From Acidobacteriota bacterium (GTDB lineage: Bacteria; Acidobacteriota; Blastocatellia; UBA7656): 55,167 nucleotides of DNA. The translations under genes and the position numbers were made by a program. The stretch lies in the NCBI GenBank assembly GCA_016201275.1, contig JACQDB010000054.1, forward strand, positions 1 through 55,167. Direction: 5' to 3'. The notes below the pieces were generated by a model. It searched no databases. It saw only the letters and a list, made by a program, of their open reading frames with translations, and was not told the origin of the DNA. Positions 45,067 to 54,507 of this stretch are shown one piece after another. Numbering within the stretch: position 1 is the stretch's first letter; every line of letters begins with the position of its first letter.

Positions 45067-46416
45067 CTACCTTGTTGCACCATTGGCTTTTCCTACGCGC
45101 AATTCGACGCGGCAGCGCTCGCCCATCAATTGAGTAATCGAATTGGTCAACTCCGGCGTCACCCGCACACGGACGAATTGATTGGGTTGTATGCGCGCCA
45201 GTTGGCCGTCTTCGAGTTCCACTTCAAAAACAATTTCGCAATCACCGCGATGCGTATCCAACAGGTGATAGAGTTGATCCAGACGGTCATCTTTTACCGC
45301 CGCAACCGGAAAGCGCATGGACATGACTTTGGCGGTGCGTTCGCGCAGGTTCACCAGTGATTGTATCTCGTCGGCGATGATGCTCATCGCGCCGCCATCA
45401 TCTATTTCCAGTCGTCCGCGCACCAGTATGGGCGCGTCTTCCTGCAACACACTCACAGATTTCTTATAGGTCTCCGGCCATACTACGACTTTGACCGAAC
45501 CATATTGATCTTCGATTTGCGACAACGCAAAGCGGTCGCCTTTCTTGGTCGTGCGAACCGATAATTCAATGACGATGCCGCCTAAACAGACCTGCGCGCC
45601 GTGATGAAAATTCGCCAGCGCATTCACATCCGCAGTGGCTATATCTTTCATCGCCGCTTCATAGCCTTGCAGCGGATGACCGGAAATGTAAAAGCCGAGG
45701 GTCTCTTTTTCGCCTTTTAATAATTCCGCTTGCGACCATTCGGCAACCTGCGGCAGCGGTGGTTCTGCAATCGCCACCTGTGCCAGCATCGCGCCAAACA
45801 GCGAGACTTGACCACTGGCTTTCGATTTCTGGGTGCGCTGACCGCTGTCAATCGCCGCATCAATGGCTGCGAACAATTGCGCTCGATGATGAGTTCCAGC
45901 AAGTGAATCGAAAGCGCCGGATTTGACTAAGCCTTCCAGCACACGCTTATTCACTGCCTTGGGGTCAACGCGCTCGGTGAAATCGAAAATAGATTTGAAC
46001 GCGCCGCCGTTGTTGCGCGCTTCGACGATGCTCGCGACTGCGCCTTGCCCTATGCCTTTGATTGCCGCCAGGCCGAAGCGTATGGTGTTGCCGTTTGCCG
46101 TAAAGTTATCGAAACTGGCGTTGACATCGGGAGGCAAAATCTCTATGCCTTGGGAGCGCGATTCGCTGATATATTTGACAACTTTCGCGGTGTTGTTCAA
46201 TTCGTTCGACAACACCGCCGCCAGAAAATGCGTCGGGTAATAGGCCTTCAAATAGGCCGTTTGATAAGCCAGATAGCCATACGCCATCGAGTGGCTGTTG
46301 GCGGTCAGTATGCCATTCGCAAAGTAGTTATGATGGGGAGCGCGCATGGTCATGTTATAAGTTTTTTCAGTCCCACGCGGCGTGACGCGAACAATCTTTG
46401 TCTTTTCGATTTTCAT
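45067..46416 (-). CDS. dnaE: DNA polymerase III alpha, C-terminal part with split-intein C-half
   Basis: The 449-aa ORF begins with a 40-residue intein C-half: MKIEKTKIVRVTPRG, NMTMRAPHHNYFANG and ILTAN, then the first extein residue Ser. From SHSMAYGYLAYQTAYLKAYY it continues the DnaE thumb/fingers region, HhH motifs (AAIKGIGQGAVASI) and the OB-fold (KGDRFALSQIEDQYGSVKVVVW). In DnaE alpha this part binds the clamp and single strands. Its ATG overlaps the endonuclease stop (ATGA). IntN plus IntC would restore a 1171-aa polymerase by protein splicing. The penultimate intein residue is Ala rather than His, as in some split inteins that have Ser. Confidence 0.93.
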   Translation of the reverse strand: MKIEKTKIVRVTPRGTEKTYNMTMRAPHHNYFANGILTANSHSMAYGYLAYQTAYLKAYYPTHFLAAVLSNELNNTAKVVKYISESRSQGIEILPPDVNASFDNFTANGNTIRFGLAAIKGIGQGAVASIVEARNNGGAFKSIFDFTERVDPKAVNKRVLEGLVKSGAFDSLAGTHHRAQLFAAIDAAIDSGQRTQKSKASGQVSLFGAMLAQVAIAEPPLPQVAEWSQAELLKGEKETLGFYISGHPLQGYEAAMKDIATADVNALANFHHGAQVCLGGIVIELSVRTTKKGDRFALSQIEDQYGSVKVVVWPETYKKSVSVLQEDAPILVRGRLEIDDGGAMSIIADEIQSLVNLRERTAKVMSMRFPVAAVKDDRLDQLYHLLDTHRGDCEIVFEVELEDGQLARIQPNQFVRVRVTPELTNSITQLMGERCRVELRVGKANGATR

Positions 46417-47225
46417 AAATACCTCTTGAGCAAAACCTTTTTTCGCTCCAGATAGACCTCAGCATTTTGGTAAAGATAGCGAGTAATTTTTCGGATGTCG
46501 GCGTCAAGCGACCATTGAATGAAGGCAACCGATTTATTTTGGTGAAGCCGGTTATCCGAAATCCCCAGTTTGCAGATGAGCCACATTCTGATTTCCGTAA
46601 GCAATCTCTCGCTGCCACAAAATCCGATGATGGCACCACCATCCTGGCGATGACTGACAGTGCCATCACCATCCAGTATGCCGCGCAAAAGATGCGGCAT
46701 AAACTCCTGCTGTAATACCGGCAGATAGGTCAAGGCGCTTTTTCTCGGCACCACACCGTAACGGCTTAAATCGGCTGCCATGCGCTGCGAGGAGACCGTT
46801 ACTCGGTATAGAGGTTGATGACGAATGGAACGTGCTTTGATGTGCAGCACCGGATTGGTCGAACCTAAAAACTCTCTAAATTTTTCCAGCAACTCGCAAT
46901 CAATCATCTGTAACCCAATTTGCGGCTCGCCGTTATTTCGTGTGTCGCTGATATATCCATCGGTGAGCAGTATGCCCAACCAATAGGCTTTGGCCTGTGT
47001 GTCAACATTGGCGAAAATCGCCTCGTGATAACTCTTATAGTCTGCGCGACCGTAAGGACTGCGCTTGGCCACGCCATGCTTTTCGAGAACGTCATAGACG
47101 GTCTTTTTGGTTTTGAAAGGAATCAGTTTCAAAACCTCTCTGGCCGTATGTCCTTCCTGATAATGAGCGATGATCAATTGCTCCATTTCAGGCGTGAGTC
47201 GTTTGTTCCAGGCGGTGCGCGGCAT
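46413..47225 (-). CDS. free-standing LAGLIDADG homing endonuclease inside the fractured dnaE
   Basis: The 270-aa product starts MPRTAWNKRLTPEMEQLIIA and has an N-terminal helix-turn-helix region (about 10-55). Two LAGLIDADG motifs follow, WLGILLTDGY (82-91) and LRGILDGDGT (180-189), so it can act as a monomer. ATG 47225 has an AAGGAG site at 9-nt spacing. It is in a different frame from both dnaE parts, overlaps the end of dnaE-N by 38 nt and the start of dnaE-C by 4 nt. Intein endonucleases are usually fused in frame; here it is a separate gene. It would cut an intein-less dnaE allele and spread the locus. Confidence 0.93.
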   Translation of the reverse strand: MPRTAWNKRLTPEMEQLIIAHYQEGHTAREVLKLIPFKTKKTVYDVLEKHGVAKRSPYGRADYKSYHEAIFANVDTQAKAYWLGILLTDGYISDTRNNGEPQIGLQMIDCELLEKFREFLGSTNPVLHIKARSIRHQPLYRVTVSSQRMAADLSRYGVVPRKSALTYLPVLQQEFMPHLLRGILDGDGTVSHRQDGGAIIGFCGSERLLTEIRMWLICKLGISDNRLHQNKSVAFIQWSLDADIRKITRYLYQNAEVYLERKKVLLKRYL

Positions 47226-49818
47226 ACTCTTCAACTCCTTGGGAAAAATAGATCGCCAAATCTTTTTCAAGAATCTCGCGCAACGGCAGATAGCCGTCGT
47301 CGGTATAGAATTTGTGTTCCAGCGTGCAGGTGATGGTTCGCCCATCGGCGGTTTCAATCTCTACGACCTCCTGCTCTCCGGTTGCAAAGGCTTCGACGAT
47401 CTCATTGACAAAGACTTGTTCGCTGTCATAACTGTAGGTTCGAGAGGTGGTCACTTCGCAATTGGCGATCTGTTCAAGGGTAACGGGTGCGCCGCTGTCT
47501 GCGTCAACGATGGTGGTAGCGCCTGACAAACAGCGATTGAAGGCATAGTCGGCGAAGCCTTCCATGCTCTGCCATAATTTATCGAGCTTCTCTTTTTCAT
47601 GACCTTTGGCCATGGCCTGTTTGGTGAACTTCTCTTTGTGTTTGTCGAGTTCTTCGCGCTTCTTCTTGCCCATAGCGCGGCGCACCAAATCGGCTTCGCC
47701 TAACGAGTATCCGGCGAGGCGTTGAAACACCGCCATGATTTGCTCCTGATACACAATCACCGCCATGGTATTGCCCAGCACATCTTGAAGTTCAGGAAAG
47801 TCATAACGAATTTTCTTTTTGCCATGCCGACGATCAATGAAATCGTCAATCATGCCGCTGTCAATCGGCCCCGGACGATAGAGCGCATTGAGCGCCGATA
47901 AATCTTCCAGATTTTCAGGCTTTAAGCGGCGGCAAATGTCTTTCATGCCATCCGATTCAAACTGAAAAATCGCTTCCGTTTTGCCTTCAACGAAAATCTG
48001 CAACGCTGCTTTGTCATCAAGCGGAATATTGGCCAGATCAATACGCTTGCCGGTTTCGCGCGCGATGGATTTCAGGCAGTCTTCGATGATGGTCAAAGTG
48101 GTCAAGGCCAGAAAGTCCATCTTCAACATCCCGGTCTTTTCCAAATCATTCATCGGGTACTGCGTGGTAATTTCATCGCGTGAGGTTTTGGAAATCGGCA
48201 CCAGTTCGTAAAGTGGTTGCGGTGAAATGACGACTCCGGCGGCGTGTACCGAAGTGTGGCGCGAACAGCCTTCCAAGCGCATGGCGATTTCGATTACTTC
48301 TTTGACACGCGGGTCTGCGTCTATCGCCTTTTTCAATTCCGGCACGTCTTGAATGGCTTGCGCGATAGAGATATTGCGTCCGCGCACCGGCGGCGGAATC
48401 ATCTTGGCGATCTTTTCGACTTCCGCATACGGCATATCCAGAGCGCGGCCTACATCTTTAATCGCCGCTTTCGAGGCCATCGTGCCAAACGTAGCGATTT
48501 GCGAAACGTGATCGCGCCCGTAATAATCGGCCACGTAATCAATGACTTTCTGCCGCCCGTGTACGCAGAAATCTATGTCTATATCGGGCATCGAAACGCG
48601 CTCAGGATTTAAGAAACGCTCGAACAGTAATTCGTATTGCAGCGGGTCAATGTCGGTGATTCTCATGCTGTAGGCGACAAGCGAACCTGCAGCGCTCCCA
48701 CGACCAGGGCCTACAGGAATCTGGCTGGTGCGTGCATACTTGATGAAATCCCAGACGATTAAAAAATATCCGGGAAAGCCCATCTTGGTGATGACTTCGA
48801 TTTCGCGTTCGAGGCGGGCGCAGTAATCGTCATAATCGAATTTGCGGTCGGGCTTCTCTTTAATTGCCGCCCAGCGTTCCGCCAATCCATCACGGGCGAT
48901 CTGGGCAAAATAGCTGTCGGTCGTGAAGCCTTCCGGTACACGATATTTGGGCAAATGATTTTGTCCGAAAGGCAATTCCAACTCGCACATTTCGGCAATC
49001 GCTACGGTGTTCAACAACGCTTCGGGCAGGTCTTTGCCAAACAGCATCCACATCTCTTGCGGCGTGCGAAAGAAGAATTGTTCGGGTTGATACTTGACTC
49101 TGCGGGTTTCGGTGTGAACTTTGCCCGCGCCTATGCAGACGTGTATATCGTGAGCGCGCCAATCTTCTTTCATCAGATAATGGCAATCGTTGGTGGCCAC
49201 CAAAGGAATGCCGGTCTTTTTCGATAGCGCCATCATGCCGGGAATGACTGTGCCGACCTCTTCTTCGAGTTGGTGATTCTGAATTTCCAGATAGTAATTG
49301 CCTTTGCCGAACATATCTTCAAACTCTTTGGCGCGGCGTGCGGCTTCGTCGAATTTGTCGGTCAGCAACAAGGCCGACGGCACCCCCGACAGACAGGCCG
49401 ACAAACAAATCAAGCCTTCGCTGTGGGCGGCGAGAAATTCTTTATCAATGCAGGGTTTGTAATAGAAGCCTTCGGTGTAAGAGAACGACGTAATCTTGAT
49501 GAGGTTTTGATAACCCTGCAAATTTTTAGCCAGCAGGATGATGTGATTTCTGCCGCGTTCGCCGGTCGTTGATTCGCCGCGCTCGGTCATGCGGCTTTTT
49601 GACAGGTAAGCTTCGATGCCGATGATCGGTTTAACGCCGGAGCCTTTCATGGTGTTATAGAAAGACAGCGCCCCGAACATATTGCCGTGGTCGGTGATGG
49701 CAACGGCGCGTGCCTTCGTCTCCTGGGCGCGTTTGGCGAGCGGTTTGATTTTAATCGCGCCGTCGAGCAGGCTGAAATCCGTGTGTAAATGAAGATGCAC
49801 AAAATCTTTTTCGTTCAT
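47188..49818 (-). CDS. dnaE: DNA polymerase III alpha, N-terminal part with split-intein N-half
   Basis: The 876-aa product has the PHP domain (HLHLHTDFSLLDGA), the palm with catalytic acids in PDIDIDF, and GPGRGSAAGSLVAY. At EGFADYAFNR the extein stops; residue 763 is the intein Cys. The 114-aa IntN begins CLSGATTIVDADSG, with block B in GRTITCTLEHKF, and ends at the stop. The host site is four residues beyond the cyanobacterial split-DnaE site (FAEY before CFNK). ATG 49818 begins MNEKDFVHLHLH; the frame is open to 49887. Splicing with dnaE-C is required for a full polymerase. Confidence 0.93.
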   Translation of the reverse strand: MNEKDFVHLHLHTDFSLLDGAIKIKPLAKRAQETKARAVAITDHGNMFGALSFYNTMKGSGVKPIIGIEAYLSKSRMTERGESTTGERGRNHIILLAKNLQGYQNLIKITSFSYTEGFYYKPCIDKEFLAAHSEGLICLSACLSGVPSALLLTDKFDEAARRAKEFEDMFGKGNYYLEIQNHQLEEEVGTVIPGMMALSKKTGIPLVATNDCHYLMKEDWRAHDIHVCIGAGKVHTETRRVKYQPEQFFFRTPQEMWMLFGKDLPEALLNTVAIAEMCELELPFGQNHLPKYRVPEGFTTDSYFAQIARDGLAERWAAIKEKPDRKFDYDDYCARLEREIEVITKMGFPGYFLIVWDFIKYARTSQIPVGPGRGSAAGSLVAYSMRITDIDPLQYELLFERFLNPERVSMPDIDIDFCVHGRQKVIDYVADYYGRDHVSQIATFGTMASKAAIKDVGRALDMPYAEVEKIAKMIPPPVRGRNISIAQAIQDVPELKKAIDADPRVKEVIEIAMRLEGCSRHTSVHAAGVVISPQPLYELVPISKTSRDEITTQYPMNDLEKTGMLKMDFLALTTLTIIEDCLKSIARETGKRIDLANIPLDDKAALQIFVEGKTEAIFQFESDGMKDICRRLKPENLEDLSALNALYRPGPIDSGMIDDFIDRRHGKKKIRYDFPELQDVLGNTMAVIVYQEQIMAVFQRLAGYSLGEADLVRRAMGKKKREELDKHKEKFTKQAMAKGHEKEKLDKLWQSMEGFADYAFNRCLSGATTIVDADSGAPVTLEQIANCEVTTSRTYSYDSEQVFVNEIVEAFATGEQEVVEIETADGRTITCTLEHKFYTDDGYLPLREILEKDLAIYFSQGVEEYAAHRLEQTTHA

Positions 49819-50190
49819 GATGAGTTCTCTTGATGAATGGTGCGCGGATGGTCGCGCTGAGGGTATGGATTTCACCACCAGTGTCACAATTTTTTATGAC
49901 GCCTTGCGCTTGAACTGCCGCATCCCTCACGGCGCGTGATTATAACGCAAAGCGGAAAATCCTGTACACCAAGAGTTGTGGCTTGATTGGCGCAAACCTC
50001 AAAATGTTGTTTATTTTCAGGGAAATCTTTTTTTCTCTGGCAAAGCGACTTCGGCTTTCCGGCAGAGAAAAAGCCGAGCAAAAAAAGTGGCGGGAAGTAT
50101 GCCATTAGCGATACTATAGGCAGGGTCAAAGTCCGCGTGAGAACGCGGGTTCACCGCGCCACTTTCAGCGAGTTTCACAAACGAACGCCT
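49819..50190. other. intergenic stretch between divergent dnaE-N and KAP genes
   Basis: It contains a hairpin with TTTTTCTCTG (50030-50039) and CAGAGAAAAA (50063-50072). The KAP frame is open across 49987-50190, but that stretch lacks domain character. I could not settle a promoter for either gene. Confidence 0.5.
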
Positions 50191-51666
50191 ATGGTGAAAA
50201 ATGACGAGCCGGTATATGAAGATGCGCTGGGGTATTACTCTCTGGTCAAGCGCATAGGGCATCGCATATTGCGCTGTGCGCCGCCTTATGTCATTGGCGT
50301 GTGCGGCTCCTGGGGGGCGGGCAAAACCAGTTTCCTGCGTATGCTGCAAGCCTATCTCGGCGGCGCTGTCGAACGCGCCGATGGCGGAGTGAAAAAGCTT
50401 TCTCCGACCGAGCATCAACAATGGTTTGTCGAAGCCTACGACGAGTTCAAGGCTGTCAAAGAGCAGAAGAAAATCGAATTGGTGTGGTTCAATCCCTGGC
50501 AGCATCAGTTTGAATCAAGCCCGTTGGTTGCTCTGCTCAACGAGATTCGCCAGCATTTCAGCATCAAGCACAAACTGTTCAATCAGGCCGGCAAACTTAC
50601 CGATGTGACGATTCACGCCACGTTGAACTCCATGACCGAAATCGCCAAAGACCTGAAAATCCCCCTGCCTTCGGCCAGAACGGTCATGGAACGCGGACGC
50701 GAATATGAGAGCGAACATTTTTCCAGCGCTTTAGGCTCGCAACGCTTCCGCGATTTTTTCGAGAGCGCGATTAAAACCATCACCGGCAAAGACGGTTTGC
50801 TGGTCATCTTCATTGACGACCTTGACCGCTGCGAAGGCGAGGTTTCTTATCGCCTGCTGGAATCGTTGAAACTCTATCTCAACGCCAGCAATTGTGTTTA
50901 CATACTTGGTCTCGATCAGCAGCATCTGGAAAGCACCATTGCCAAAGCGCTGTCCGGCGAAAAAGAGACCTGGCGGTTTCGCCCGCTGGCGCGGGATTAT
51001 CTGAGCAAGATGTTTCAGAACATTTTTCTGCTGCCGGTGCCGCGTCAAACCCATACCTACATCGAACAGTTGCTGGATTTTGCCGATGCGGATTTTCAGT
51101 CCTGTTTGACTGACTTGTTCGGCTTCAAAGCCGCTGATCGCCAATCGTTGGTTGCCGTGTTGAATGAAAATCTGCCGCACAACCCGCGCAAGATCAAATC
51201 CTTCATCGCTTCATGGAAACTCTATCTGGATGCGCTGTCGCCGTTGCCTGCGGCGGAAAAACTGGACTGGCGATTAACCCTCGTCTTGCAGTACCTGGCG
51301 CAATTTGAAGAGCCGTTGTTTCGTCGCATTGAAATCGCTCCGGCTTTTTACAATGACGAACTGGTGAACTATTGCCGGCATGGCTACAGCGCACACCCGT
51401 TGTTTGACGGATTGGAACTTCCTTACGGGATGCAGATCAACACGCCGGAAAATGATCCGTCGGGTGGTTTCGATTCACCGATTCCCAGCGGCACAGAAGC
51501 GACTTCCGAGCCGGGTGGCGTAGCGAAAAAAGATGAACCGAAACGACTGCCGGAACCGCGTATCTTCTGGGTCAGCCGTCTGGTCAAACAACTGATGAGC
51601 GAGCGCGGCGATAAATTGAACGAGGAGTTTATCCTGCAACACCTGCTTCACGCGGGCGGTAAATAA
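50191..51666 (+). CDS. KAP-family P-loop NTPase
   Basis: The 491-aa product begins MVKNDEPVYEDALGYYSLVK. It has the KAP Walker A GSWGAGKTSFLR (residues 39-50), IELVWFNPWQHQFE after it (the KAP W-F-N-x-W-x-Y/H motif) and Walker B LLVIFIDDLDRCE (about 202-214). The C-terminal region is predicted alpha-helical, followed by a Pro/Gly-rich linker (GGFDSPIPSGTEATSEPGG). No membrane helix pair is visible, unlike many KAP proteins. KAP NTPases include phage-exclusion proteins such as PifA. The NACHT gene follows 24 nt downstream. The start is the first ATG with domain sequence; its ribosome site is weak. Confidence 0.9.
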   Translation: MVKNDEPVYEDALGYYSLVKRIGHRILRCAPPYVIGVCGSWGAGKTSFLRMLQAYLGGAVERADGGVKKLSPTEHQQWFVEAYDEFKAVKEQKKIELVWFNPWQHQFESSPLVALLNEIRQHFSIKHKLFNQAGKLTDVTIHATLNSMTEIAKDLKIPLPSARTVMERGREYESEHFSSALGSQRFRDFFESAIKTITGKDGLLVIFIDDLDRCEGEVSYRLLESLKLYLNASNCVYILGLDQQHLESTIAKALSGEKETWRFRPLARDYLSKMFQNIFLLPVPRQTHTYIEQLLDFADADFQSCLTDLFGFKAADRQSLVAVLNENLPHNPRKIKSFIASWKLYLDALSPLPAAEKLDWRLTLVLQYLAQFEEPLFRRIEIAPAFYNDELVNYCRHGYSAHPLFDGLELPYGMQINTPENDPSGGFDSPIPSGTEATSEPGGVAKKDEPKRLPEPRIFWVSRLVKQLMSERGDKLNEEFILQHLLHAGGK

Positions 51667-51690: not shown

Positions 51691-54507
51691 ATGGCGAGTA
51701 ATGTGACCAAAGACCTTGAAGGCAGTTACGCTTTGCGTTTGTCGTGGCGTTACCGCGAGGTTGATTTTCTGGGGCTGCCGCACTTGAAAGATAATCGCCC
51801 GGTGCGCCTGGAAAATATCTATGTGCCGTTGCGTCTGGCCTGGGAGATGCACAATCGTCGCGACAAAGAGAAAACATTTTTCGTTCCCAAAGCCTTGCAG
51901 GAGAGCCGCCACCTGGTAGTTCTGGGCGATCCCGGCAGCGGCAAATCCACACTCGTCAAAGTCCTGACGCACGCCTTTGGACAATCGGCCAGCAGTGCTT
52001 TCAAACGTATGTTCGGCGAATTGTTGCCCGTGCCGATTATTCTGCGCGATTACAAAGTGCGGCGCTGGAACTCGCCCGAAGAGATGTTGAGCGATTTCAT
52101 CCGAACCCTTGATGCAGAAATCCGCGACGAAATCACACCGGAATGGTTGCTCGACCATCTACGCGGCGGGCGCGGCTTTCTGTTGATTGACGGCTTGGAT
52201 GAAGTCGGCAGCGTCACCGACCGCAAACAGTTACGCGATAAAGTTGTGCGCCCGTTGCTCGCCCAGATGCCGGACAGCCTGGCGCTGTTGACCAGTCGCC
52301 TGGTCGGTTATGAAGAAGCGCCGTTTGAAGGCTATGTGGATCTGAAAAAATATCCGCTCGAAGCGCCGTATCGCGGGTTGCCGCCGACGATTCGGCGTTG
52401 TTATGTAGCGCCGTTTAGCGATGAAGACATCGAACAATTCATCGTGCGCTGGTACAAGGTGCGCGAAGCCCATTCCGACAGACAGCGCGAAGGCATCGAA
52501 TCGTTCAAACGCGCTCTGCATCAAAACGACCGCGTCAGACGCCTGGCCGACAATCCGCAGCTTTTAACCTTGATGGCGCTGGTGCATCGCGTGACGGCGA
52601 ATCTGCCATCGGGGCGCGTCAAATTGTATGACAAGATTGTGGAAGCCTATCTGGAAACCATTTCGGTTTATCGCAAGATGAGTGTGCCGGCGACGCTCGA
52701 TGAAATGAAACGCTGGCTGGCAAAAGTCGGCTGGGAGATGCAGGAGCGCCGCGATGAACAGGAGGCCGAAGAGTTGTTGGTGCATCGTGACGAGGTGTTG
52801 CGGTGGTTGACCGACGCGATTACCAGAGAGCGCGGCGCAAGTGGGGCGCTCGAAGATGCCGAAAAATTTTTGGACTATGTAGCGCGGCGTGCCGGTTTAT
52901 TGATCCCGCGAGGCCAGGACACGGAAGGGAAAGATCTGTTCGCCTTTGTGCATTTGACCTTTCAGGAATATTTCGCGGCGTTCGAGTTACGCGGCAGAGT
53001 GCGGCGGTTCGATTCATTGGCGCAGGATTGTGTGGAACGGGTGACCAAACCCCACTGGCACGAAACCCTGAATATTCTTTTTGAAATGCTCAACGAGTTT
53101 CCCGGCGCTTGCGATGATTTATTCGATGTGATGGTGAAACAAACTGCGAGCCTTCCCAAAAAAAGAAGGAGCACAGCGGAATTTTTCTCGGCGTTGTTGC
53201 TGGATGAACAGAACGGCCTCAGTGATAAAAAGCAGAGAGCGGCTGCCGATTTTACGCTGGCTTCGGTCTGCGAAAATTACGACGATGCCATTATCAAGAA
53301 CCTGCGCGATTTGGAACCGGAGCCAAAGAAAACGCTGGTGAGCGATTGGTTTGACAGCAAGCTGCGAGAGGCGACGGCGAACGGGTTTAGCAAATATTTC
53401 TTTCTGGTTGGAGCAGAGTTGTTTGCAGATTGGCATATCCGTTTGAGCGAGTGGATTGAGAGCGGTGATTATCGGGAGCCTGATAAGCTGCAAGTCGCGG
53501 AAATCGCCTTGATTGGTGCGTGCGATGCCGATACCTCTCGCAAGTTTTGCCCGTGGGCGGTCGAGCATTTGCCATTGGATATGTGGTTGCGGCGAATATC
53601 CTTTTGGACCGGACACAGTTTAAGCTTGGCGGATATTTATCGCCAGGAGATTTATGCGACCTATGACGATACCATTCGGCAGCACTTATTTATTGAAGCA
53701 AGCGTTGCCGCAGCCTTTGTTATATCACAATTACTCAGAACAGTAGTTGCTTTCTTAAGGAGTGCTCTGGCTCGCGGTTTGGCCCGCACTCTAGCTCGCG
53801 ATCTGGAACGCGACCTGGATCGCGCTCTGGCTATTGATCTAGATGGCACTCTGGTTCGCGCTCTGGCACACGCTCTGGAGCGAGTTCTGGATCGCGCTCT
53901 GGTTCGCGCTTTGGATCCCGCTCTAGCTCTCGATCTAGCTTTTTATCTTCATGACGGTCAGGCTCTCCATCTGGATCGCGCTCTAAATGCAGTAGCGCCG
54001 CGTCCTGAGTTGAAACTCGACAAAGCCGGAATCACCTCAACCTTCGCGCTGTCCGAATGGATATTCTTTGCGCCGGATGACTTCGATAAAGAAGGCGCTA
54101 CGCTCATCAAAGAGCTAACCAAACTTGCACAAGCGCCGGATGATTGGACACGACTGCTGGCCATCTCTGCATTGCTTTCGCTGGGCTATGGCACGCCGGA
54201 ATTGTGCGGCGAGCGCAACGCTCTGCTTGAAAAAGGTATCAAGCGCAGCCCGCAATTTACCTTTCCCGCTGCTCTCCATCCCGAAACCGAAACCACAGAG
54301 TTTCGCAACCAGTTGCCGGAACTTTTTGACATCATCTTCCTGCACAATCCCGATGACCCGTGGCTGCGCCCGGAACTCTTTGACCCGGCGCGACCGGAAG
54401 CGAAATACTTTCTCGTCAAGCCGCGCGAGTTCTTCATCCTTGCCGCCGAAGCGCTCGACCCCGAAGGCGAAACCGAGTTGACCGCGTGGCGCAAAAAACA
54501 AAGCTGA
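51691..54507 (+). CDS. NACHT-domain NTPase with tetrapeptide-repeat C-terminal region
   Basis: The 938-aa product has a short N-terminal segment and then a NACHT module: Walker A VLGDPGSGKSTLVK (about 77-90), Walker B GFLLIDGLDEVG (about 162-173), SLALLTSRLVGYEE as sensor 1 and the downstream RRLADNPQLLTLMAL. After the NTPase comes FVHLTFQEYFAAFELRG (about 420), typical of NACHT proteins. Helical repeats follow. Residues about 691-766 consist of x-L-x-R tetrapeptides from a 12-bp DNA repeat. Bacterial NACHT proteins include antiphage sensors. There is no recognisable effector domain at either end; the upstream KAP gene may be the partner. Confidence 0.9.
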   Translation: MASNVTKDLEGSYALRLSWRYREVDFLGLPHLKDNRPVRLENIYVPLRLAWEMHNRRDKEKTFFVPKALQESRHLVVLGDPGSGKSTLVKVLTHAFGQSASSAFKRMFGELLPVPIILRDYKVRRWNSPEEMLSDFIRTLDAEIRDEITPEWLLDHLRGGRGFLLIDGLDEVGSVTDRKQLRDKVVRPLLAQMPDSLALLTSRLVGYEEAPFEGYVDLKKYPLEAPYRGLPPTIRRCYVAPFSDEDIEQFIVRWYKVREAHSDRQREGIESFKRALHQNDRVRRLADNPQLLTLMALVHRVTANLPSGRVKLYDKIVEAYLETISVYRKMSVPATLDEMKRWLAKVGWEMQERRDEQEAEELLVHRDEVLRWLTDAITRERGASGALEDAEKFLDYVARRAGLLIPRGQDTEGKDLFAFVHLTFQEYFAAFELRGRVRRFDSLAQDCVERVTKPHWHETLNILFEMLNEFPGACDDLFDVMVKQTASLPKKRRSTAEFFSALLLDEQNGLSDKKQRAAADFTLASVCENYDDAIIKNLRDLEPEPKKTLVSDWFDSKLREATANGFSKYFFLVGAELFADWHIRLSEWIESGDYREPDKLQVAEIALIGACDADTSRKFCPWAVEHLPLDMWLRRISFWTGHSLSLADIYRQEIYATYDDTIRQHLFIEASVAAAFVISQLLRTVVAFLRSALARGLARTLARDLERDLDRALAIDLDGTLVRALAHALERVLDRALVRALDPALALDLAFYLHDGQALHLDRALNAVAPRPELKLDKAGITSTFALSEWIFFAPDDFDKEGATLIKELTKLAQAPDDWTRLLAISALLSLGYGTPELCGERNALLEKGIKRSPQFTFPAALHPETETTEFRNQLPELFDIIFLHNPDDPWLRPELFDPARPEAKYFLVKPREFFILAAEALDPEGETELTAWRKKQS
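53765..53985 (+). repeat. 12-bp minisatellite inside the NACHT gene
   Basis: About 18 degenerate units of GCTCTGGCTCGC type run through this stretch, all in frame. They encode ALAR, GLAR, TLAR, DLER, DLDR, ALVR and similar tetrapeptides. The repeat is DNA-level, as codon use is nearly constant. Confidence 0.85.

Follow-up and report, generated by a model that had tools for sequence, protein, structure and literature searches.

Fractured genes, as reportedly described by Dassa et al. 2009 (NAR 37:2560), are conserved DNA-metabolism genes interrupted by a split intein whose two halves have a free-standing endonuclease gene between them. They are said to come mainly from phage-like metagenomic DNA and to include eight enzyme types, and an endonuclease family related to Vsr is reportedly found in about half of the loci. 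The other closest described system is the cyanobacterial DnaE split inteins, which carry an Ala before the last Asn. According to an excerpt of PMC2664965, they have an N-terminal half (IntN) of 102–111 amino acids (aa) and a C-terminal half (IntC) of 35–36 aa, and the intein precedes the residues CFNK. Here we describe a locus in a stretch of 55,167 nucleotides (nt) from an Acidobacteriota bacterium of the class Blastocatellia (contig JACQDB010000054.1, genome G000; the whole stretch analysed is called the window), where dnaE, encoding the alpha subunit of DNA polymerase III, is divided into a gene ending with an IntN and a gene beginning with an IntC, and a free-standing LAGLIDADG endonuclease gene lies between them. 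We give a probability of about 0.8 to the reading that this is a three-part mobile element in chromosomal dnaE, composed of trans-splicing halves and a homing endonuclease in an exchangeable slot, and subject to loss and dispersal.

The dnaE locus of the window

An earlier note, made from the letters of this DNA alone, had described a 114-aa IntN running from Cys763 to the stop, a 40-aa IntC ending TAN before Ser and a 270-aa LAGLIDADG gene with two motifs, and all of these coordinates hold. The reading frames (shared by IntN and IntC, different for the endonuclease), the AAGGAG motif and the overlaps of 38 nt and ATGA were likewise confirmed. The features are the following.

49818-47188, minus strand: dnaE-N, whole gene, 876 aa, with Cys763 to the stop as the 114-aa IntN
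47533..49818, minus strand: dnaE-N extein, residues 1–762 of DNA polymerase III alpha, with PHP, NTPase and finger domains
47191..47532, minus strand: IntN, 114 aa, with Cys1 and block B TCTLEH; stop at 47190-47188
47235..47240, minus strand: AAGGAG, Shine-Dalgarno-like motif for the endonuclease gene, inside IntN
46413..47225, minus strand: free-standing LAGLIDADG endonuclease gene (P0002), 270 aa, in the other frame
46953..46985, minus strand: first LAGLIDADG motif, YWLGILLTDGY, aa 81–91; D89 identical in 5/5 genomes
46659..46694, minus strand: second LAGLIDADG motif, HLLRGILDGDGT, aa 178–189; D187 identical in 5/5 genomes
46413..46416, minus strand: ATGA stop/start overlap of the endonuclease gene and the IntC gene
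46416-45067, minus strand: dnaE-C, whole gene, 449 aa, beginning with IntC
46297..46416, minus strand: IntC, 40 aa, ending TAN and preceding SHS
45067..46296, minus strand: dnaE-C extein, 409 aa plus stop, starting with Ser+1 (SHSMAYG)

The ATG of the endonuclease gene at 47225 sits 9 nt downstream of AAGGAG, and the gene overlaps dnaE-N by 38 nt. The first 98 aa of IntN have a net charge of -14 and the last 33 aa of IntC a net charge of +3, and joining of the two exteins gives a predicted product of 762+409 = 1171 aa, the length that had been foreseen.

IntN scores above the cut-off for TIGR01445 intein_Nterm (37.3 bits against 24.5), and its match to Pfam Intein_splicing, 24.8 bits, is under the cut-off of 35.8; the DnaE domains of both extein parts match models above curated cut-offs. 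IntC has no intein-family match of its own, and its identity is based on its own sequence, on the alignment to relatives and on a match to PRK07373, presumably the model of cyanobacterial DnaE-C, which extends back to residue 6 of dnaE-C with a score below that model's cut-off. Among solved structures the IntN profile finds 14 DnaE-intein sequences (E 1.4e-10 to 3e-8) and next DnaB inteins (1.4e-6), and the best match of the IntC profile is a DnaB intein (0.0074), with no DnaE intein matched. The middle gene is LAGLIDADG_3 in Pfam (42.2 against a cut-off of 22.5) and not related to Vsr; Pfam detects one LAGLIDADG stretch in P0002 and two in the copy of genome G003, no NCBIfam model matched P0002, and its sequence search against solved structures gave nothing meaningful. 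P0002 is built from an N-terminal helical segment, resembling a helix-turn-helix, followed by two LAGLIDADG repeats, and the structure predicted for it at middling confidence (pLDDT, predicted local distance difference test, 67) has the corresponding order of helices and strands, with two motifs containing acidic residues and two alpha-beta-beta-alpha-beta-beta-alpha repeats. The Foldseek list for this model is headed by LAGLIDADG structures, with template modelling (TM) scores of 0.22–0.30.

Conservation of the fractured layout

No second dnaE was found in the 162 contigs of the window's genome (98.7% complete), either with a dnaE-N query or with a joined-junction query, as the earlier note's reading expects, and some reconstitution of DnaE should therefore be needed. 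A search of genomes for the same three-gene order, which had been proposed as a check, gave four further Acidobacteriota assemblies, namely G003 (Chloracidobacterium sp. UBA7656, of the same family as the window), G420, G421 and G422 (Acidobacteriota CP_BM_RX_R9_16, CP_BM_RX_34 and gp4 AA20). Their endonucleases show 68, 59, 57 and 56% identity to that of the window respectively, and the overlap between endonuclease gene and IntN is 38, 44, 23, 23 and 23 nt across the five genomes. The endonuclease gene ends with ATGA in all five; in three of them the script took the ATG of this ATGA as the IntC start, and for G420 and G421 it chose an ATG lying two codons earlier, a possible alternative start. 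The locus had been presented as a chromosomal LAGLIDADG case, and the replicase gene and the free-standing endonuclease gene stand; the case is not isolated, with five Acidobacteriota assemblies and also phage contigs, some of them with LAGLIDADG.

The endonuclease is under purifying selection. In a simple estimate, where three endonuclease pairs are unsaturated and the other three computed pairs are saturated in synonymous changes, the ratio of nonsynonymous to synonymous substitution rates (dN/dS) is about 0.22 for G420/G421, 0.09 for G420/G422 and 0.12 for G421/G422, and the C-extein is much alike in the matching pairs (0.24, 0.09 and 0.10). As the layout recurs in four assemblies and the endonuclease has a dN/dS of about 0.1–0.2, the locus is not due to chance or to a frameshift error. 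The frame common to IntN and IntC and the draft state of the window assembly could be expected if sequencing or assembly had broken a single contiguous LAGLIDADG intein, but the probability of such an artefact is negligible, since the four other assemblies have the endonuclease in its own frame, with an IntN overlap within the range of 23–44 nt and the ATGA end. The frameshift artefact was thus ruled out by the recurrence of the layout.

States of the locus within the class

A joined-flank query was run on 58 genomes of the class and matched 52. Of these, 39 lack the intein and were matched straight across the junction, 12 were matched in two halves, and G005 gave a weak match only. The 12 genomes with two halves are the window's own (G000), G002, G003, G009, G013 and seven of genus g16. 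In G013 (Blastocatellia bacterium SSF51) a Uma2 protein of 237 aa (55 bits in Pfam against a cut-off of 27) is encoded between IntN and IntC, and its stop overlaps, in the sequence TAATG, with the first ATG of the gene for IntC. The IntN and IntC genes of G002 are separated by 21 nt, and the gap contains a 22-codon frame with an endonuclease-like start (MPRTAWNKRLTPEIE) and an endonuclease-like end (RYL, then ATGA). From this sequence we infer that the endonuclease body was lost in frame, because the short frame joins the endonuclease-like start to the last codons of the gene with the ATGA intact. G009 has a single open frame of 1702 aa that holds a contiguous intein of 160 aa. The seven g16 genomes (Chloracidobacterium group) have the dnaE halves in two places, with no intact copy listed; in G021, G025 and G017 the halves are about 0.7–1.4 Mb apart on one contig, and in the other four they are on different contigs. 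The far-apart state is present in G017, G021 and G025, which are apparently complete genomes of two contigs. Outside the class, the Chloroflexi metagenome-assembled genome (MAG) G423 carries a contiguous intein at the same site.

The locus of the window had been proposed to be an intermediate between a contiguous and a fully split intein, and relatives do show fractured, swapped, remnant, separated and contiguous forms at the same residue, which lends the proposal real weight. The order contiguous to fractured to split was not demonstrated; the series is only partly oriented, in that the remnants point to loss of the endonuclease as the one step with a direction. G009, which alone in the class has a contiguous intein, may owe it to a re-fusion. 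A Met within that intein was weighed as a possible sign of such an event and discounted, since in the alignment its position differs from that of the IntC start.

Loci were given for the best 30 rows. These cover 27 of the 39 junction-matched genomes, and all of them were read except G053, which did not fit the pattern, leaving 26. The residue after the site in these 26 intein-less rows is Ser in 21 and Ala in 5 (L010, L011, L012, L038 and L039). In the window's family the three intein-less genomes that were readable (G001, G004 and G006) all have Ala. The +1 nucleophiles used by inteins are Cys, Ser and Thr according to an excerpt of PMC11923092, so that Ala is not among them, and on sequence grounds the Ala-bearing dnaE genes are possibly resistant alleles. 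Further inteins are seen in some of the intein-bearing genes: the dnaE of G003 and G013 (L040, L041) has a second, contiguous intein upstream, before C(V/T)YQEQ, and a second IntN-like match in the dnaE frame of G009 (L042) suggests another one.

Possible movement between hosts

The host tree was calculated from 45 aa of the N-extein and 250 aa of the C-extein, the former cut to this length because the second intein spoils a longer piece in some rows. The 12 junction-matched genomes without a locus, the weakly matched G005 and six unmatched genomes are outside this tree, and the second tree run was made without G423. In the host tree G003 is placed with G000, G002 and the intein-less members of the family (99/98), far away from G420–G422, and in the intein tree without G423 it joins G420–G422 (97/95). 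When the grouping of G003 with G420–G422 was forced on the host data it was rejected (approximately unbiased test, p-AU 3e-40), and a single clade of all intein carriers was also rejected on these data; on the host tree at least four changes are required to explain which hosts carry the intein. The conflict between the intein and host trees suggests that the intein has moved between hosts.

The element has a scattered distribution. In the order to which G422 belongs, 119 genomes were covered and 3 have a full endonuclease together with IntN; weaker endonuclease matches occur in four further genomes, and a weak IntN match in one. Among 396 genomes sampled evenly from the phylum with the endonuclease profile, with at most six candidates scored per genome listed and G003 giving no row, a full-length endonuclease was found in one, the window's own, and a partial match in G345. 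Thirteen plasmid records match the endonuclease, all below 60% identity. Two other LAGLIDADG sequences were noted: L091 (G458:C65:1830-2405), in the order of G422, is related to the endonuclease (E 6.6e-22) and lies in an open frame of 486 aa that does not seem to belong to an intein, and L068 (G000:C81:20275-20655), in the window's genome, is an apparent contiguous LAGLIDADG intein in another protein (821-aa open frame).

Viral and phage counterparts

Scanning the viral contigs of IMG/VR with the IntN profile gave 59 loci (L096–L154), 43 of which match at the DnaE junction. These were scored by script as 31 split, 9 contiguous and 3 unclear, a count that is not dereplicated (L111, L112 and L114 share identical middle open reading frames, ORFs), that has the 16 loci without the DnaE junction pattern excluded, and in which L137 is scored as adjacent with its IntC 1.2 kb off. 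The script missed IntC in 15 split loci, and on reading 13 of them, all except L100 and L120, a middle ORF followed by dnaE-C with IntC was seen. IntN identity is 29–51% for these viral loci, and in L122 and L098 the insertion is two residues further on; for the IntN tree, cores with the same sequence were collapsed into one.

The endonuclease profile matches the middle ORFs of six viral loci, L122 (2.8e-39), L113, L103, L108, L101 and the truncated L116, and Pfam supports LAGLIDADG in all four of these that were tested. The middle genes of L113 and L122 are homologous to P0002 with 31 and 29% identity respectively. An endonuclease profile scan of the viral contigs had returned no relatives, which is a limit of the pattern search since the same profile later matched L113 and L122. 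The middle ORF of L119 passes the cut-off for NUMOD3 with DUF559 just below, that of L107 has sub-threshold nuclease-like matches, that of L145 matches ROS_MUCR and that of L096 has no Pfam match. Most other phage middle ORFs look Vsr/EDxHD-like, a label given by eye because Pfam support is weak in those tested. L141 has kept a tail of 61 aa that resembles the end of an endonuclease and nothing more, and no middle ORF was seen in L117 and L136; together with the loci that have a middle ORF, these indicate that both the fractured layout and the loss of the middle gene occur also in phage dnaE.

A match to the endonuclease is present in 140 named phage records, in 99 of them with a coverage of at least 80%, and the best is Alicyclobacillus phage MMB025 (L155). 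In MMB025 and in Lysinibacillus phage LC76P1 (L156) the endonuclease relative lies, by eye, between two DnaE-like pieces, and no intein halves were seen beside it in either phage. An Rfam search of six loci (the two named phages, two viral contigs and two bacterial loci) gave no match at E 0.1.

Proposed mechanism and alternatives

We propose that the element consists of IntN, the LAGLIDADG homing endonuclease gene and IntC as parts of one unit in chromosomal dnaE. The two DnaE polypeptides would be made, probably from one transcript, with coupled start sites; the intein halves would then associate, and Cys1 of IntN and Ser+1 of the C-extein should trans-splice to give the 1171-aa polymerase. 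All of the 16 intein-bearing rows except G423 combine an acidic IntN with a basic IntC, in line with an excerpt of PMC11923092, by which natural split inteins associate electrostatically and are divided, at the position of the endonuclease, into pieces of about 100 and 40 aa. All 16 rows, including those with widely separated halves, retain the block B His, and also Cys1 and Asn|Ser, which count for less because the extraction pattern required both. Cys1, the block B His, the terminal Asn and Ser+1 predict ordinary trans-splicing. The endonuclease would cut an intein-less dnaE near FN(R/K)|SHS, and repair would copy IntN, endonuclease and IntC as a block. The slot between the halves appears to be exchangeable, with Uma2 in G013 and Vsr/EDxHD-like proteins in phages, and the endonuclease may decay to a remnant as in G002, after which the halves could stay adjacent or become separated as in the Chloracidobacterium group.

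Several observations weigh against this reading. The five bacterial cases fractured by LAGLIDADG are all draft assemblies, the four named ones MAGs, and the endonuclease model is of middling quality (pLDDT 67, TM 0.22–0.30). The Uma2 gene of G013 has a 69% identical copy elsewhere in the same genome and may be a passenger without a homing role. Forcing the host grouping on the intein data was rejected marginally (p-AU 0.0435), the first two tested groupings were picked after the first trees had been seen, and the identities of IntC and endonuclease do not show the same conflict, G003 being closer to G000 than to G420 in both. The deep branches of the IntN tree are weak (62/85) and based on few columns, and a search of 50,697 named phage records with the window IntN gave seven reductase inteins of Campylobacter phages and no dnaE.

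The locus could instead be a decayed parasite that has retained splicing, lost homing and is inherited with the gene, the endonuclease gene persisting through the coupled translation of IntC. The 22-codon frame and ATGA of G002, kept after the loss of the endonuclease body as if the coupling had been retained, would fit this, and a vertically inherited intein is conceivable in the family to which the window belongs; the low dN/dS of the endonuclease, which marks purifying selection, the motif acids identical in 5/5 and the scattered distribution with its tree conflict speak against it, and we regard it as unlikely. It is far less probable still that the halves function as a two-subunit polymerase with the intein pieces as a docking tag: a two-chain DnaE is conceivable and splicing is a prediction, but the block B His is present in 16/16 rows even with the halves far apart, and Cys1 and Asn|Ser, with the lesser weight mentioned, are as well. 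The events might also have run in the reverse order, with the split intein ancestral, nucleases invading the gap later and the contiguous intein of G009 a re-fusion. G009 is placed among split relatives in the host tree and, in contrast to the contiguous intein of Chloroflexi G423, shares its acidic/basic polarity with the split rows; however, the intein tree lacks a fixed root, the polarity could predate splitting and contiguous relatives occur at the same junction in viral contigs, and we find this order rather improbable, though less so than the decayed parasite.

The mobile element we favour can be extended tentatively, with somewhat less than even odds, to a junction in dnaE that serves as a shared docking slot for a modular element, whose gap is filled by unrelated nucleases (LAGLIDADG, Vsr/EDxHD-like, Uma2) and which moves between replicase genes of phages and bacteria. 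It would be traceable in one class through endonuclease loss to dispersal, and perhaps back to the contiguous state (G009), with splitting reversible and the coupling remnant selected. The origin of naturally split inteins is an old question. Within this class a single residue of an essential gene is seen in the fractured, nuclease-swapped, remnant-bearing, contiguous and dispersed states, which makes each proposed step testable with natural proteins. The class is also a source of new natural split inteins with Ser+1.

Neighbouring genes

Beside dnaE, at 49987-51666 on the plus strand, is a gene for a KAP-family NTPase (PF07693, 3.6e-28; PADLOC PDC-S20, 1.4e-32), followed at 51691-54507 on the plus strand by one for a NACHT-type NTPase (PF05729, 5.2e-9). 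By their families the two might form a defence pair.

Comparison with known systems

Like the fractured genes, the locus of the window is a conserved enzyme gene broken by IntN and IntC on separate ORFs, with a free-standing endonuclease ORF between the halves that has its own start and another frame. It differs in being a bacterial chromosomal replicase, in having a LAGLIDADG nuclease (or Uma2, in a relative) instead of a Vsr-related one, and in having relatives that show loss and dispersal at the same residue. With the cyanobacterial DnaE inteins (Ssp, Npu) it shares the splitting in dnaE, the combination of a long IntN and a short IntC (114/40) and the Ala that precedes the last Asn, and they are the best solved-structure matches of the IntN profile, whereas the IntC profile has no match to them. 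The insertion is at FNR|SHS, three residues downstream of the C of CFNK as the excerpted source places it, which ruled out an allele of the cyanobacterial intein; in addition the window has Ser+1 and not Cys+1, an endonuclease is present and the genes overlap. The phage dnaE inteins of IMG/VR have the same order of IntN, middle nuclease gene and IntC at the same junction. LAGLIDADG endonucleases of named phages (I-MsaII of Staphylococcus phage MSA6 and the enzyme of MMB025) are homologous to P0002, and unlike that of the window several of them are annotated as intron-encoded. The dnaE of Desulfonema ishimotonii is, according to an excerpt of PMC6390638, not divided by a split intein and has a contiguous intein of 415 aa; by the same excerpt it resembles the window in having a non-cyanobacterial dnaE intein and dnaE as two adjacent genes, and differs in that the intein is contiguous and inside one of the two. 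An intein table in PMC4071816 lists one protein of Chloracidobacterium thermophilum B. In the open-access literature searched, partly represented by excerpts and with most subscription papers outside it, we came across no account of a bacterial dnaE that is fractured, of intein halves with a LAGLIDADG or Uma2 gene between them, or of Chloracidobacterium having its dnaE split. What is new here is the cellular chromosomal replicase as host gene, the swapped nucleases and the graded series of states at one site.

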